Assembly: GCF_016862555.1 (NCBI RefSeq)
Contig: NZ_BONE01000011.1
Coordinates: 62,001 to 126,000, forward strand
DNA: 64,000 nt
DNA from: Asanoa siamensis
Lineage (GTDB): Bacteria; Actinomycetota; Actinomycetes; Mycobacteriales; Micromonosporaceae
Reading direction: 5' to 3'
Part shown: piece by piece, positions 35,325 through 41,151 of the stretch
Position numbering within the stretch: position 1 is the first letter of the stretch
Layout of the letters: each line of letters starts with the position of its first letter
Position numbers and translations under genes: made by a program
Notes under the pieces: generated by a model
Database searches by the model: none
Told to the model about the DNA's origin: nothing
Seen by the model: the letters and a program-made list of their open reading frames with translations, nothing else

Positions 35325-35346
35325 CCACGTGTATCAGGCCCGGGCC

Positions 35347-35380
35347 GGCGGCCGTCTCGCTTTCGGGACGGGCGGCCGCC
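35347..35380 (+). terminator. Terminator-like hairpin after oxidoreductase
   Basis: GGCGGCC (35347-35353) pairs with GGCCGCC (35374-35380), with an inner GTC/GAC extension and a short bulge. It lies 23 bases after the stop. Confidence 0.55.
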
Positions 35381-35415: not shown

Positions 35416-35817
35416 ATGGCCAACAACAGCTGGGACGCAGCGATCAAGCAGCTCTACCCCGCCGACAACGGCACCAAGGACTTCGCCGAGACCGTCGCCC
35501 GAGGCAAGCCGTTCGACGTCGTCGCGGCCATCGAGATCGGGCGCAACCTGCGCGAGTTCGTCACCAGCGACCTGCTGACGGTCACGGTGACCAACCGCAC
35601 CAGGATGACGGTCGTCGCCCAGGTGACCGCGCCCCGGACGCTCGCGCCGGCCAGCGCCGCGCTGGCCGAGGACCTGCGGGTCGACATCAACGGCGGCTGG
35701 GACGCGAAGGCCGGCGAGGGCGACGTGCTCGAGGCCGTCGCCACCTACAAGACCGTGGCGGGTGTCCACACCGACTACTCGTCCGCCACGAGCCAGCTCT
35801 TCACCGTCGTCGCGTGA
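35416..35817 (+). CDS. Hypothetical protein, 133 residues
   Basis: A soluble beta-rich protein with no signal peptide that I do not recognise. The N-terminus is MANNSWDAAIKQLYPADNGT; the middle alternates hydrophobic and Thr/Val residues (LTVTVTNRTRMTVVAQVTAP), suggesting a beta-sandwich. GGAAGG precedes the ATG. It is bracketed by hairpin terminators on both sides, so it is a single-gene transcription unit. Confidence 0.75.
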   Translation: MANNSWDAAIKQLYPADNGTKDFAETVARGKPFDVVAAIEIGRNLREFVTSDLLTVTVTNRTRMTVVAQVTAPRTLAPASAALAEDLRVDINGGWDAKAGEGDVLEAVATYKTVAGVHTDYSSATSQLFTVVA

Positions 35818-35964: not shown

Positions 35965-36573
35965 ATGGAAGAGTTGGATCTCGCAGGACTGGTACGCCGG
36001 ATCCGTGCGGGTGACGCGGTCGCATGGGCCGCGCTCACCGCGCGGTACACGAACCTCCTCTGGTCGGTCGCCCGCGGCCTGGGGATGGGCGACGCCGACG
36101 CGGCCGACGCCGTGCAGACGGCGTGGCTCCGGCTGGTGGAGAAGATCGACGACATCCGGGACCCGGACCGGTTGGGCAGCTGGCTCGCGACGGTGGTGCG
36201 CCGGGAGTGCCACAACATCCGCCGCCGGGCCGCCCGCGTCGAGCCCGGCGAACCGGACGGGCCCGACGGGTGGGAGAGCATCGGCGCGGTCACCGACCCG
36301 TTGGACGACCGGCTGCTGCGCGACGAGCGCGACGCGGCGCTGTGGCGGGCGTTCGCCGGGCTGCGGCCCGACTGCCAGCGGCTGCTGCGCGTGCTGATGG
36401 CCGACCCGCAGCCGAGCTACGCCGAGGTCTCGGCCGCGCTCGACATGGCGATCGGCAGCATCGGCCCGACCCGGCAGCGGTGTCTCGCCTGCCTGCGCGG
36501 CCTGCTCGACGAGAACCTCTTCGAGCCGCCACCGAACGCCAAGCACAGTGGACAGGGAGCGAGGGGACGATGA
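35965..36573 (+). CDS. ECF-like sigma-70 family RNA polymerase sigma factor
   Basis: A 202-residue sigma factor. Region 2 (AWAALTARYTNLLWSVARGLG, then DADAADAVQTAWLRLVEKID) recognises the -10 box; region 4 (LRPDCQRLLRVLMADPQPSY, then SIGPTRQRCLACLRGLL) recognises the -35 box. No anti-sigma membrane protein is next to it. The AGGAG site precedes the ATG. Its stop overlaps the next start (ATGA), so it is coupled to the unknown protein beside a TPR-CHAT gene. This combination suggests that it drives, or responds to, the CHAT/subtilase module. Confidence 0.92.
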   Translation: MEELDLAGLVRRIRAGDAVAWAALTARYTNLLWSVARGLGMGDADAADAVQTAWLRLVEKIDDIRDPDRLGSWLATVVRRECHNIRRRAARVEPGEPDGPDGWESIGAVTDPLDDRLLRDERDAALWRAFAGLRPDCQRLLRVLMADPQPSYAEVSAALDMAIGSIGPTRQRCLACLRGLLDENLFEPPPNAKHSGQGARGR

Positions 36574-37043
36574 ACCGCGACGACCACCCTGAGAGCGATC
36601 TCCTGGGCGCGTACCGGCGGATCGCCGCGATCGTGGACCCCCCGCCCGCGGACGTGCTGGCGGCCGCGCGCGCCGCGTTCCTCACCCGCGACCTCGACGG
36701 CGCGATCGCCGTCCTCGTCGCGGACTCCCGCGCCTCCGTCGGCTACCAGCCGGTCCGCGCGGAGCCCGACCAGGCCCAGGGGCACTGGCTGCTCACGTTC
36801 GAGGGCGGCGGCATCCGGGCCGACCTCGAGGTGGGGGAGGACGCGGCGGGGTTGCGGCTGCTGGGCCTGCTCTCCGGCACGGCGGAGGGCGACTGCGAGC
36901 TGGAGCAGGCGGGCGTGCGGCGCCCGGTCGAGGTGGACGCGCTCGGCCGGTTCGTGGTCGCGGGGGTGTCCCACGGCCCGATCCGGCTGCGCTGCCGGGC
37001 CGCCGACGGTACCCGGGTGACCACGGCCTGGGTGACGATATGA
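36570..37043 (+). CDS. Unknown protein coupled to sigma factor, CHAT-associated
   Basis: A 157-residue protein I do not recognise by name. The N-terminal 45 residues are helical (DDHPESDLLGAYRRIAAIVD, then PADVLAAARAAFLTRD), and the rest is a predicted beta-sandwich (HWLLTFEGGGIRADLEV to GPIRLRCRAADGTRVTTAWV). The layout, with a short helical head and a beta domain, is reminiscent of anti-sigma-like or carboxypeptidase-regulatory-like modules. ATG 36570 overlaps the sigma stop, so it is made with the sigma factor and is its likeliest direct regulator. The convergent CHAT gene ends 20 bp after it. Confidence 0.8.
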   Translation: MNRDDHPESDLLGAYRRIAAIVDPPPADVLAAARAAFLTRDLDGAIAVLVADSRASVGYQPVRAEPDQAQGHWLLTFEGGGIRADLEVGEDAAGLRLLGLLSGTAEGDCELEQAGVRRPVEVDALGRFVVAGVSHGPIRLRCRAADGTRVTTAWVTI

Positions 37044-37063
37044 CCGCGGCGCCGGGGCTGAGC

Positions 37064-39643
37064 TCAGTGTCCGAGGGCGATGAAGGCCGACGCCGTGGCG
37101 ACCGCGACCGGGTCGGCGCCCGTGCGGCTCCGCGCGGCGGCCAGGGCCGCGCCGAAGGGCGCGCCGCGTCGCAGGCCGGCGTGCACGTCGACCATCAGCG
37201 GGGCGGTGACCTCGTCGTTCACCGGCACGACGCTGGCCAGCAGGCTCGTGGTGCCGAGCGGCACGAGCACGCTGATCATGCCGAGCAGCTCGTCGCCGGC
37301 CACGGGCGCGGCCATGCCGGACTCGCAGCTCGACAGGATCAGGCTGCGCGGCGCGCGCCGGAGCCGGCCGAGGTCGTAGACGGTGAGCGGGCCGTCGGCC
37401 AGGCGCAACGAGGAGAACAGCGGGTTGTCGGCGCGGAACAGGCCGTGCGCCGCGATGTGCGCGGTGCGGGCTCCGTCCAGGGCCGCCAGGACCCGGGCCG
37501 CGGTCGCCTGGCCGGCGGCGAGGACCGTGGGCCGGCCGTACCCCCGCGCGATCTCCGCGGCCTCGGCCACCGTGCCCTTCAATCCGGGCCCCACGACGAT
37601 CACGACCCGGCGGTCGGCGGTGGCGGGCGGCTGTCGCGCCCGCAACCAGACCGCGGCCGACGGGGTGACACACCAGGCGAGCTGCCGCAGCGCGGGCAGC
37701 ATGGCCCACGGCACGGCGTGCAGCGAGCCCGGCGGGGCGATCACCACGGGTCGACCGTCCAGATCGGACACCGCCGGGCCGAGCAGCGCCTGTTCCAGCA
37801 GGCGCCCCGCCTGCCCGAGGCGTTCCAGCGCGCCGGGCGGCGCGTCGCCGCGGGCGAGCCGGCGCAGCATGAACCGGGCCAGCTCGACCTCGCGCACCGC
37901 GGCCGCCACCGGACCGACGACGTGCAGCCGGACGCGGCCCTTCCGCGCGGTGACCGCGTGCAGCACGCCGTCGAGCGCCACCAGCTCGATCAGCAGGTGG
38001 TCGTCGAGCCGCCCGAGCACGTCGTCGGGTGCGACCCGGGCAGCGCGCGCGCCGCCGGGGGCGACCCGGCGCGTCCGGGCCCGGATCGCCGACTCCAGCC
38101 GGCGCCGGTCGTGCTCGAGGTCGGCGGTGCCGGACCCGGCCGCCCGGGCCGCGTCGATCTGCCGCATCACCTCGCGCAGCGCGGCCAGGTCGCCGGCCAG
38201 CTCGGGATCGTCGGGGCCGCGCATCGGGGCCGGTGCGAGCGCCCCGGCCCGCCAGCGCTCGCTCCAGCGCAGCAGCATGCGGGCGTCGTCGCGGCGCACG
38301 GCGTGGCGCTGGCCGATGGCCGCCAGCTCGGTGCCGTACGCGGCCGCGTGGATGCGCAGCTCGACGGCGCCGAGGCGCTGCTGGTGGCCGGCGGCGGCCG
38401 CCAGGCCCCGCCGGCACGCGGCCAGCGCCGCCGCGGTCGCGTGCCGGGTGTCGGCCCGCAGGGCCTGGGCGAGCCAGCCGGCCGCATGGCCGAACGCCGG
38501 ACCCCGGCGGCGCAGGGCCGCGGCGCGGGCGAGATGCCTGTCGGCCCGGGCGAGGCGGCCGTGCGCCGCGGCGAGGCGCCCGGCCAGCAGGTGCGCGGCG
38601 CCCGCCTCCTCGGCGTGCAGCTCGTCGAGGCGGTCCGCGATGCGGGCCGCCATGGTCTCCGTGCGGTTGTCGCGCTGGCCGGCGTCGTACCGCGACTGCA
38701 CGAGCACGAACGCGGCCCGCGCACTCCACCATGGACGCCGCTGGGCGCGGAACAGGTCCCGCGCGGCGCCGGCCCGGACGGCCGCGTCCGCCGGACGGCC
38801 CGCGGCCTGCGCCGCCCGCGCGGCGGCGAAGAGCAGCTCGGCCCGTTCGGACGTGTCGCCCTCCACCCGGGCGATGCCGGCGTCGGCGACCGCCAGCGCC
38901 TCGGCGGCCAGCCCCGCCGCGAGCAGCACCTTGCAGCGGTCGAAGACCAGGTCGGGGATGAACGTGCCCAGGCTCGTGTAGCGGCTCTCCGCCTCGTCGA
39001 GGCAGGCCAGCGCGGCCGGCAGGTCACCGGCGAGCACGGCGAGCTCGGCTCTGTTGTGGATGGTCGTCGCGACCTCGAGCTCCTGACCCTCCTGTATGAA
39101 CAGTCGCTCGGCGACGGCGAGGTCGCGTTCGGCCAGGCGCGCCCGGCCGAACGTGACGTGCACCCCGAAGCGGCAGCTCCGCGCCCGGGCCTCCCAGACG
39201 CGGTCGCCCGCCCGGTGCAGCAACGGGATCGCGCGGTTGAGGTCGGCCAGGGCCTCGCTGCGGCGACCCATCGTCGCCAGGTGGTGGGCGCGGCGCATCA
39301 GCACGCGCCCGGCGAGCCGCCCGGAGCTGGCTTTCACCGCGGCGTCGAGCGTGGCGAGGCCGGCCGCCGCCCGGCCGCCGCGGGCGAGCGTCAGTCCGAG
39401 CGTCGCCTGCACGTCGACCACGCGGTCCGGGTCGCCCGAGGCGCGGGCCAGCCGCAGCGCGGTGCGCAGGTCCGCGATGGCCTCGGTGAACCGGCCCTCC
39501 TCGCGGACGACCAATGCCCGGGCGTGATGGGCGTACGAGGCCAACCGGTCGTCGACGTCGTCGGCGATCAGGCGGTTCACCTCCGCGAGAGCGTCGACCG
39601 GGCGGGAGAACGCCAGGCTCAGCAGCTCGTCGCCATCGGCCAC
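37064..39643 (-). CDS. TPR-CHAT domain protein (caspase-fold protease candidate)
   Basis: An 859-residue soluble protein. Residues 1 to about 480 are helical TPR-like repeats. The C-terminal CHAT domain (from about 590) has a caspase fold with the catalytic dyad His733 in AHIAAHGLF and Cys773 in LILSSCESG, so it looks active. TPR-CHAT proteins elsewhere include the Craspase effector and separase relatives. It is divergent from a cytoplasmic subtilisin gene with 47 bp between starts, and convergent with the sigma factor pair. The start is GTG 39643, preceded by CACACT at 6 nt as a possible -10 box. Cleavage of a partner in the module, such as the coupled unknown protein or the subtilisin, is a reasonable inference. 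Confidence 0.9.
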   Translation of the reverse strand: MADGDELLSLAFSRPVDALAEVNRLIADDVDDRLASYAHHARALVVREEGRFTEAIADLRTALRLARASGDPDRVVDVQATLGLTLARGGRAAAGLATLDAAVKASSGRLAGRVLMRRAHHLATMGRRSEALADLNRAIPLLHRAGDRVWEARARSCRFGVHVTFGRARLAERDLAVAERLFIQEGQELEVATTIHNRAELAVLAGDLPAALACLDEAESRYTSLGTFIPDLVFDRCKVLLAAGLAAEALAVADAGIARVEGDTSERAELLFAAARAAQAAGRPADAAVRAGAARDLFRAQRRPWWSARAAFVLVQSRYDAGQRDNRTETMAARIADRLDELHAEEAGAAHLLAGRLAAAHGRLARADRHLARAAALRRRGPAFGHAAGWLAQALRADTRHATAAALAACRRGLAAAAGHQQRLGAVELRIHAAAYGTELAAIGQRHAVRRDDARMLLRWSERWRAGALAPAPMRGPDDPELAGDLAALREVMRQIDAARAAGSGTADLEHDRRRLESAIRARTRRVAPGGARAARVAPDDVLGRLDDHLLIELVALDGVLHAVTARKGRVRLHVVGPVAAAVREVELARFMLRRLARGDAPPGALERLGQAGRLLEQALLGPAVSDLDGRPVVIAPPGSLHAVPWAMLPALRQLAWCVTPSAAVWLRARQPPATADRRVVIVVGPGLKGTVAEAAEIARGYGRPTVLAAGQATAARVLAALDGARTAHIAAHGLFRADNPLFSSLRLADGPLTVYDLGRLRRAPRSLILSSCESGMAAPVAGDELLGMISVLVPLGTTSLLASVVPVNDEVTAPLMVDVHAGLRRGAPFGAALAAARSRTGADPVAVATASAFIALGH

Positions 39644-39690
39644 CAGGTCAGTGTGCGAAATCGGCTTCCCTACGCCAAGGAGATTCAGCG

Positions 39691-41151
39691 ATGCCGAAAC
39701 GGAACCCCGACGACGAATGGTCGACCCGGGAGGAGCGGGCGCACTGGCCCGTACCCGAGACCGCCACGACGGTGGCCGACGCGCAGGTCGGCCGGATACT
39801 GCGGGAATGCGGCAGGTACCTCGAGCCCGGGCCGCCCGGCTGGGAGCGCGACGGCATCAGGTACTTCGTCCGGAGGGGCTTCGTGCTGGTCCCGGACGAG
39901 CACGCCGAGCGCGCGCGACGGCTGCTGGTCCGGGCCGGGATGCGTCCGCCGCCGAGCGCACCCCCGGACGTCGAGAGCCGGACGGTCGCGGATCCGTCTC
40001 CCGGACACGCGCCGGGTCGGTGGGACAGGCCACCGCCGCGGCCGCTGGGCGGCCCGCGACTCGACGGGGACACCGCGTACGGCGTCCGTTGGCTGCGTCT
40101 CAACCCGCTCGTGAGCGTCTTCGACGCGCTGCGGGTGCTGCGCGACGGCCGATGGGCACAGCGGGAGCCGTACGCGATCGACGACGTGGGCGGCAGTCCG
40201 GACGAGGGGATCGGGCGCGCCGGCGCGGAGCACCTGCTGCACCTCGCCGACCACACCAAGCCCTGCCCGGCCGAGGAGCCGCGGTTCGTCGCCAAGGGCA
40301 CGCCGCCGGACCCGCCGGTCGCCGCGGACCCCCACGCCGGCCGGGGGATCCGGGTGCTCGTGGTCGACACGGGTTTCGATCCGCGCGCCGAGAAGCTTCC
40401 CTGGCTGAAGGACGTTGTCTACGACCCCGACCCCGGGGTCAAGGGCAAGGTGATCGAGCGGTACGCCGGGCACGGCACGTTCATCGCGGGCGTCGTCCGC
40501 ACCGTGGCGCCCGCGGCGGAGGTGGTCGTGCGGGCCGGCCTGCCGGCGGCGATCTACGGTGCGGCCGCGCAGACGCCGCTCGGCTCGGTGTTCGAGGGCG
40601 ACCTCGCGCACGCGCTCGAGCGCTACCTCCTCCTGGACGCTCCCGACATCATCAGCCTGTCGGCCGGCACCTTGGGGGAGAGCCCGGAGGGGCTGATGCT
40701 GCTCGAGTCGTTCCATCGCGACGTGCTGCGCCGCCACAAGGGCGTCGTGGTCGTGGCGGCCGCCGGCAACGACGGCGGGCGTGCGCCGTTCTGGCCCGCG
40801 GCGAGCCCGTGGACGGTCGGCGTCGGCGCGCTGTCGGCGAACTGGCGGCACCGCGCGCAGTTCAGCAACTTCGGTGCCTGGGTCGACGTCTACGCGCCGG
40901 GCGAGCACCTGACCAACGCGTTCCCGCGGGGGACCTACACCTACTTCCAGCCGCCCCACATCGGCGGGACGCAGGTGTTCGAGGGCATGGCGGTCTGGAG
41001 CGGCACCTCGTTCTCGACCCCCGTGATGGCGGGGCTGATCGCGGCGCGGATGTCCCGCACCGGCGAGAACGGCCCCGACGCCGCGGCGGCCCTGATCGCG
41101 CAGGGACGCCGGGACGCGGTCGCCGGGGTGGGTGCCGTCCTGCTGCCGTGA
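39691..41151 (+). CDS. Cytoplasmic S8 family serine peptidase (subtilisin-like)
   Basis: A 486-residue subtilase without a signal peptide. The first 215 residues are a family-specific N-terminal part, possibly a pro- or recognition domain (GIRYFVRRGFVLVPDEHAER is a ferredoxin-like segment). The catalytic domain has Asp226 in VLVVDTGFD, His261 in YAGHGTFIAG, oxyanion Asn360 in AAAGNDGG and Ser440 in SGTSFSTPVMAG, all intact. AAGGAG precedes the ATG. It is divergent from the TPR-CHAT gene, so the two probably share a control region; both being intracellular proteases suggests a cascade. Confidence 0.92.
   Translation: MPKRNPDDEWSTREERAHWPVPETATTVADAQVGRILRECGRYLEPGPPGWERDGIRYFVRRGFVLVPDEHAERARRLLVRAGMRPPPSAPPDVESRTVADPSPGHAPGRWDRPPPRPLGGPRLDGDTAYGVRWLRLNPLVSVFDALRVLRDGRWAQREPYAIDDVGGSPDEGIGRAGAEHLLHLADHTKPCPAEEPRFVAKGTPPDPPVAADPHAGRGIRVLVVDTGFDPRAEKLPWLKDVVYDPDPGVKGKVIERYAGHGTFIAGVVRTVAPAAEVVVRAGLPAAIYGAAAQTPLGSVFEGDLAHALERYLLLDAPDIISLSAGTLGESPEGLMLLESFHRDVLRRHKGVVVVAAAGNDGGRAPFWPAASPWTVGVGALSANWRHRAQFSNFGAWVDVYAPGEHLTNAFPRGTYTYFQPPHIGGTQVFEGMAVWSGTSFSTPVMAGLIAARMSRTGENGPDAAAALIAQGRRDAVAGVGAVLLP

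Follow-up and report, generated by a model that had tools for sequence, protein, structure and literature searches.

A four-gene module of Asanoa siamensis may encode a cytoplasmic sigma/anti-sigma switch that is worked by proteolysis. It lies in a 64,000-nucleotide stretch of contig NZ_BONE01000011.1 (positions 62,001 to 126,000), which we refer to as the window. Its genes are predicted to encode an extracytoplasmic function (ECF)-type sigma factor, a small protein that we call U, a protease with tetratricopeptide repeats (TPR) and a CHAT domain, and a subtilase of family S8. We put the probability that the CHAT protein works this switch by cutting U after Arg63 at about 0.48.

From gene content and its conservation, intact active sites, a near-invariant arginine and a shared promoter-like site, together with the modelled layout of U, we infer the following scheme. 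U would be co-produced with the sigma factor through ATGA coupling of their genes, and its helical N-terminus would hold the sigma factor inactive. On meeting a trigger through its TPR part, the CHAT protein would use its CHAT domain to cut U after Arg63 in a flexible linker, parting the sigma-binding helices from a C-terminal beta-sandwich. The sigma factor, then freed or made free-able, would read GTATC-N17-C[GT]YY promoters. Its targets would be its own operon, which would give positive feedback, and a small number of nearby genes, in the window a gene that we call X. The subtilase would most likely come second, either removing the cut inhibitor or acting as an effector.

Gene content and conservation of the module

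Only the sigma and U genes stand in tandem, with a 4-nt ATGA overlap; 20 bp separate the CHAT gene from the convergent U gene and 47 bp from the divergent S8 gene (Table 1). The first-pass annotation of the window had correctly placed the four genes, the overlap and the six catalytic residues, His733/Cys773 of the CHAT protein and Asp226/His261/Asn360/Ser440 of the subtilase.

Table 1. Positions of the module genes and associated features in the window.
Feature	Position	Strand	Basis
ECF-type sigma factor, 202 aa (sigma2 + sigma4)	35965..36573	+	TIGR02937 sigma70-ECF 1.3e-18, Pfam Sigma70_r2 9.3e-13
U, 157 aa, anti-sigma-like partner	36570..37043	+	AlphaFold2 model; weak CarboxypepD_reg / NF052375 matches in homologues
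Codon of U Arg63, candidate protease site (P1) in linker	36756..36758	+	conservation, low pLDDT
TPR-CHAT clan CD cysteine protease, 859 aa, GTG start, His733/Cys773	37064..39643	-	Pfam CHAT 2.2e-29, TPR_1 4.9e-6
S8 subtilase, 486 aa, propeptide-like N-terminal region	39691..41151	+	Pfam Peptidase_S8 2.3e-21; Foldseek best hit ProN-Tk-SP
Promoter-like site GTATCAGG-N14-CGTC, upstream of sigma start codon	35878..35903	+	genome-wide exact-match count
Second copy of GTATCAGG-N14-CGTC site, upstream of gene X	35331..35356	+	matching blocks, same spacing
Gene X, 133 aa, without Pfam match, possibly co-regulated accessory gene	35416..35817	+	3/200 order genomes

A single-sequence search detected U in 40 of the 200 genomes sampled from the order, and a U profile matched 51 of 396 genomes of the phylum, its own genome being included in both counts; 19 of the 51 match only from about residue 46 or later. 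We compared 122 loci, consisting of stretches around U matches and 80 of 99 named loci that were found by sequence pattern. Removal of seven duplicates, judged by identity over the last 100 residues of U, left 115, of which 113 have U. Nearly all of these loci were chosen for U and close relatives remain among them, so the counts are not counts of independent events. All four genes lie within 7 kb in 94 of the 113 U loci, in 15 arrangements. This survey, which the first-pass annotation had called for, excludes that the neighbourhood is found only in this strain, and so many arrangements of one gene set suggest that the genes are kept together by selection for a common function, rather than inherited as a single operon.

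In 104 of the 113 loci the sigma gene precedes U on the same strand at a distance of no more than 1 kb, and in 6 it lies downstream on the opposite strand. With predicted starts, 66 of 95 measured sigma-U pairs abut or overlap (gap <=0), and a 4-nt overlap is the commonest spacing (28 pairs). In 75 of the 94 complete loci the CHAT and S8 genes stand side by side and are transcribed divergently. CHAT was found in 97 of the 115 loci and S8 in 91. Contig ends truncate several of the 19 incomplete loci; ten genomes chosen from the order sample, which stand behind part of these loci, contain CHAT in nine cases and some S8 match in nine, general subtilases included. There is hardly any doubt that the module is real. 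It is widespread and little studied, in a gene context that is already known.

The draft genome of A. siamensis (8.78 Mb) has 12 CHAT matches in all. The 11 beyond that of the window lie on contigs C17, C84, C25, C24, C107, C81, C13 and C161, several of them clustered, and contig C142 holds a second module copy whose CHAT gene is truncated where the contig ends. Sigma and U read as a single fused protein at locus L041. We rejected a second such candidate, L145, in which the sigma4 region looks, by eye, out of frame before U, and because sigma4 of L041 is degenerate, fusions are not used here as strong evidence. Neighbouring genes were likewise rejected as conserved parts of the module: in the 40 loci searched, the flavin adenine dinucleotide (FAD) monooxygenase and the M1 peptidase gave one match each and the short-chain dehydrogenase/reductase (SDR) none. 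Two loci, L223 and L224 (genomes G292 and G541), carry two or three U copies, two CHAT, two S8 and one sigma gene, a duplicated module. In one clade (L074, 5765-11082; also L061, L065, L071 and L078) the module sits inside a ribosomal-protein region. Genes named by eye as secE, nusG, rplK and rplA flank it on one side in L074 and rplJ and rplL on the other, and the other four loci share neighbour clusters among themselves.

Two intact intracellular proteases with a TPR array might also serve solely for conflict or suicide, a role suggested for CHAT paired with gasdermin; the sigma factor would then merely autoregulate and the proteases would kill. A TPR-CHAT protein does act in Craspase defence, as described in PMC9729208. 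However, PADLOC reported no defence system at the module, with only generic subtilase and IetS models matching S8, the four flanking genes that were scanned appear to be metabolic or hydrolase genes, and the L074 copy lies, by eye, among ribosomal-protein genes and not in a mobile island. We consider a conflict module very unlikely.

U, its linker and the two proteases

Scans of Pfam and NCBIfam gave no family match for the U of the window and detected no anti-sigma domain in it. An alignment of 112 U sequences contains the helical motif AARAAFxWRTVDAELAxLxxDS, followed by a variable linker and a C-terminal domain. Conservation of the motif is partly selected, as the search that yielded the 80 named loci used the pattern FxWRT[VI]D[AQD]E; Arg63 lies outside this pattern. 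An AlphaFold2 model of U, with a mean predicted local distance difference test score (pLDDT) of 81.4 and a predicted template modelling score (pTM) of 0.56, has helices at residues 7-22, 27-39 and 42-55 and eight strands from residue 72. Confidence is low over residues 41-70, where mean pLDDT is 53 (41-50), 48 (51-60) and 55 (61-70). In this model U has three parts: an N-terminal set of helices, a linker of low confidence and a carboxypeptidase-regulatory/transthyretin-like beta-sandwich. CarboxypepD_reg is the one Pfam family matched by many U proteins, weakly and in 14 of 35 homologues (best 8.4e-5). Structural look-alikes in the PDB were of no help: the 50 matches listed were generic beta-sandwiches only, none at E <=0.001.

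The likeness to anti-sigma factors comes from a divergent U family with a longer N-terminus (f32; 17 genomes in the U-profile search). Of eight f32 homologues examined, seven begin with a region that resembles the N-terminal part of NF052375 'anti-sigma factor', with E 5.3e-5 to 0.047. Single divergent members give very weak matches to RskA_N, zf-HC2 or a putative anti-sigmaE model, and a PDB profile search with divergent U returned RskA at E 0.26, which alone is chance level. The two U groups are homologous from a 'PP' helix to the C-terminus (hhalign probability 98.2%). We think that U is very probably a partner of the sigma factor and probably inhibits it.

Arg63 is the sole residue present in all 112 aligned U sequences. 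Among 135 sequences, obtained by aligning 23 divergent matches to the profile built from these 112, 133 have Arg at this position, and the residue that follows is small (S, G, A, T or N) in 129. Arg63 falls in the linker, where the model is least confident, and the stretches on either side of it vary in length. Arginine is accepted at P1 in six of nine clan CD families or subfamilies tabulated in PMC4357240. Because Arg63 is near-invariant, stands in a linker between variable stretches and is a residue accepted at P1 by most of the clan CD groups tabulated, it is a good candidate cut site, and the chance that U is cut there is in our view only just short of even.

The catalytic residues His733/Cys773 are kept in all 89 aligned CHAT proteins and Asp226/His261/Asn360/Ser440 in all 91 aligned S8 proteins (after a length filter on 94 and 95 sequences, respectively), so both proteases seem to be under selection as enzymes. 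The CHAT catalytic region aligns with that of Craspase (PDB 7x8a and others, E 3e-7), and the best PDB match of the CHAT domain is structure 8rot. By eye, the subtilase has no signal peptide or hydrophobic N-terminus, and its top PDB profile match is an intracellular serine protease. The first-pass annotation had given it a 215-residue family-specific N-terminal part. This part is present but shows little conservation, with only M1, P197 and P208 reaching 85%. In the model the chain starts with disorder and its N-terminal region resembles that of pro-subtilisins, so the extension is probably a propeptide-type regulator. No basic residue that CHAT might cleave is conserved at 85% in this part among the aligned S8 proteins, and the suggestion that CHAT activates the subtilase therefore found no support.

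The same annotation had proposed a proteolytic switch in which CHAT cuts U as a possible anti-sigma factor. This idea gained independent support from the weak anti-sigma matches (7/8), the translational coupling, the linker arginine and genome G025, while binding and cleavage themselves are still predictions from sequence. G025 (97% complete) has the sigma factor, U with the arginine and CHAT, and no match to the S8 profile. In the opposite direction, G082 (87% complete) has the sigma factor, U with the arginine and S8 matches, and no CHAT match. Neither genome is decisive; G025, being more complete, favours CHAT as the cutter. We hold a cut by CHAT to be possible, at somewhat less than even odds, and a second place for the subtilase to be doubtful. 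Alternatively, the subtilase might cut U or degrade it from the linker, with CHAT acting elsewhere, for example on the subtilase. Its complete catalytic conservation, its presence in nearly as many loci as CHAT (91/115 vs 97/115), its position at the head of the sigma operon in 30 of 101 cases and the gene content of G082 would all agree with this. G025 argues against it, as does the N-terminal part of S8 where a role of CHAT on the subtilase is concerned, and we consider it unlikely.

Several observations weigh against the cutting of U by CHAT at Arg63 and against an anti-sigma role for U. The NF052375 scores all fall far short of the curated cut-off (<=23.3 of 100 bits) and come from the lineage with the longer N-terminus, and when the two U groups are aligned by profile, the alignment takes in no more than the last part of the anti-sigma-like N-terminal region. 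The U of the window is thus linked to anti-sigma factors indirectly, by homology of the rest of the protein and without a direct N-terminal match. Two of the 135 U proteins lack Arg63, and one of these (L229) has CHAT and S8 adjacent. Gly126 in the beta-sandwich is as conserved as Arg63 (133/135). G082 keeps U with its arginine and has no CHAT match. CHAT proteases may not need arginine at all, since the three Craspases studied in PMC11106740 cut non-conserved sites, between A and S, L and D, and M and K. The position of separase Asp2151, which reads P1 Arg, corresponds to residue 814 of the window CHAT in an alignment through PDB 7x8a; an acidic residue (E) stands there in 3 of 89 CHAT proteins, which mostly have A, T or V. 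The separase Asp is Lys in Csx29, according to PMC9729208. There are also U genes without a sigma gene nearby, in L045 and L050.

These points bear on the reading of Arg63 as a binding or folding residue, in contact with the sigma factor, CHAT or the beta-sandwich, in a U that serves as an adaptor or co-activator and is never cut in its linker. The equal conservation of Gly126, the variable Craspase sites, the missing separase-type Asp and the retention of the arginine in a U without nearby proteases (L045) would fit such a role. The variable-length flanks, the low model confidence and the small next residue in 129 of 135 fit it poorly, and we judge it somewhat unlikely. For the cutting of U by CHAT, an acidic residue other than the separase-type one may be considered. 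D810 (64/89 CHAT) was tried as a separase-type S1 Asp and rejected, as it is not the equivalent column. Glu694 is invariant in CHAT (89/89) and, speculatively, could read P1 Arg in the manner of the acidic residue of helix 1 in gingipain.

The orphan U genes with the conserved arginine are at L045 7953-8441 and L050 8034-8528, with no sigma or module protease gene in the fetched stretch. That of L045 lies between housekeeping genes that are, by eye, leuS- and comEA/comEC-like.

A promoter-like site shared by the sigma gene and gene X

Two matching blocks, CGTGTATCAGGC and then CCGTCT, occur at the same spacing before gene X and before the sigma gene, and the two sites lie 59 and 61 nt ahead of their start codons. 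The combination GTATCAGG-N14-CGTC has exactly two matches in the genome, these two. With at most one mismatch there are 13 genome matches vs 10 for a reversed control, so only the exact matches carry signal.

When motifs were counted de novo in the regions ahead of 33 sigma genes, GTATC-N17-CTCC ranked first. The form GTATC-N17-C[GT]YY is found in 33 of 106 sigma upstream regions vs 17 of 1085 other genes, and 20 of these 33 regions belong to loci outside the discovery set; with N18 spacing the figures are 10/106 and 20/1085. Among leaders of sigma operons, it precedes 36 of 101 at N17 and 12 more at N18, compared with a mean of 3 over ten control spacings (N11-14, 16, 19-23). N15 spacing (19/101) was rejected as a separate signal, as 12 of the 19 are N17 sites read two bases early and one is an N18 site. 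A further point against the scheme is that the exact-spacing motif is absent from 65 of the 101 operons, including 26 of the 30 led by S8; the signal therefore comes mainly from sigma-led operons and from certain lineages. Because autoregulation is common among ECF sigma factors, as noted in PMC10028731, the reader of GTATC-N17-C[GT]YY is presumably the module's own sigma factor.

The module seems to have more parts than four, namely gene X and the two promoter-like sites. Gene X is present in 3 of the 200 order genomes, A. siamensis included. At L126 (9220-9618) it stands beside another copy of the module, where the motif precedes the sigma gene and not gene X, and at L125 (9013-9408) its 19 kb stretch contains no module gene.

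Similar sites were seen in other positions. At L049 12477 (-), L060 3917 (+) and L076 near 11640 (-), a GTATCAGG-type site is located just past the CHAT stop codon and faces CHAT, as if for an antisense transcript. A gene for a secreted-looking beta-protein adjoins U in 12 loci, mostly of Micromonospora and relatives. The exact N17 motif lies upstream of it in four of the 12 (L052 6927-7913, L148 9138-9737, L161 8634-9236 and L199 8600-9655), making it a possible further target of the sigma factor. The motif also precedes regulator-like genes (LuxR/BTAD types, by eye) at L126 12329 (-), L066 13015 (+), L132 13197 (+) and L075 7962 (-), which suggests a small cascade; the L126 site falls in the 3' end of the S8 gene.

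Comparison with known systems

The passage on group ECF54 in PMC8999054, which cites Casas-Pastor 2021 and Huang 2015, describes a sigma factor in a neighbourhood with CHAT, subtilase and 'carboxypeptidase'-domain proteins and proposes proteolysis without an anti-sigma factor. This is the neighbourhood that we find in 94 of 113 loci, and locus L129 is from Geodermatophilus amargosae, the species of the ECF54 model sigma factor; the sigma factor of the window is 38.7% identical to that of L129 over 168 aa. The first-pass annotation had held that a four-gene order with a sigma factor was not functionally described. That stands for the function alone, as the neighbourhood is already catalogued as ECF54 with proteolysis proposed. 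What the passage describes does not include an anti-sigma factor, the anatomy of the partner, a cut site or a promoter, whereas here U is anti-sigma-like. The ECF54 'carboxypeptidase' is probably the non-enzymatic CarboxypepD_reg-like domain of U.

Under the proposal made for ECF54, there is no anti-sigma factor and the proteases degrade the sigma factor itself and keep its level low. It is stated for that very group, and L129 comes from the species of its model sigma factor. The weak match of U to an anti-sigma model in the divergent lineage and the anti-sigma-typical position of its gene speak against it. So does the sigma factor, in which residues 91-122, between the two domains, contain no residue conserved at 85%, whereas the U linker has one; the invariant Arg172 of the sigma factor is located in region 4. 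We regard direct degradation of the sigma factor as improbable. If the cutting of U by CHAT is correct, the view of ECF54 as a group without an anti-sigma factor would be corrected, and for a large class of uncharacterised CHAT proteases there would be a substrate, along with predictions of the cut site and of the promoter.

Class I anti-sigma factors such as RskA and RseA (ASDI domain, PMC7406223) resemble U in having a gene directly after the sigma gene (104/113 here) and N-terminal helices, and the weak match of the divergent U lineage covers the anti-sigma region. U differs in having, by eye, no transmembrane segment or zinc motif, in the shorter helical part of the window protein, in its C-terminal beta-sandwich and in its association with a soluble protease pair instead of membrane proteases. 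Compared with RseA and RsiW, the examples drawn on in PMC10028731, the whole path here appears to be cytoplasmic and to employ a relative of caspase and separase. For experiments on the module, or on CHAT together with a sigma factor, a search of mostly open literature returned only the ECF54 passage and the Craspase papers.

The closest parallel in logic is Craspase, in which the TPR-CHAT protein Csx29 cuts Csx30, a protein that binds and inhibits a sigma factor (PMC10028731, PMC9729208). The two share a TPR-CHAT protein with a His/Cys dyad, an ECF-type sigma factor and a neighbour composed of N-terminus, linker and C-terminal domain, and these papers assign sigma binding to the N-terminus of Csx30. 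The differences are as clear. The CHAT protein of the window scores 16.8 bits against the Csx29 family NF041237 (cut-off 300), and no chain named Csx30 is among the 4 + 4 PDB matches of two U profiles up to E 10, one of which (9hnh_A, E 4.7) bears no molecule name. The four flanking genes scanned include no Cas gene; no genome-wide search aimed at Cas7-11 or arrays was made. The module adds an intracellular subtilase, and its candidate cut site is conserved, unlike the Craspase sites reported in PMC11106740. Because U has no detected homology to Csx30 and its CHAT protein is not Csx29, we would say that the module works like a Craspase and not that it is one. If so, it would offer a non-CRISPR comparison for Craspase, and the triad of sigma factor, inhibitor and CHAT protease would represent a signalling cassette of general use, which type III-E CRISPR either borrowed or invented anew. 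It is a tentative reading, to which we give rather less than an even chance, that there is, across Actinomycetota, a chromosomal, CRISPR-free system akin to Craspase in logic, in which a TPR-CHAT protease senses a trigger, cuts a soluble anti-sigma factor after a near-invariant arginine and releases a self-amplifying sigma factor with a GTATC-N17-C[GT]YY promoter.

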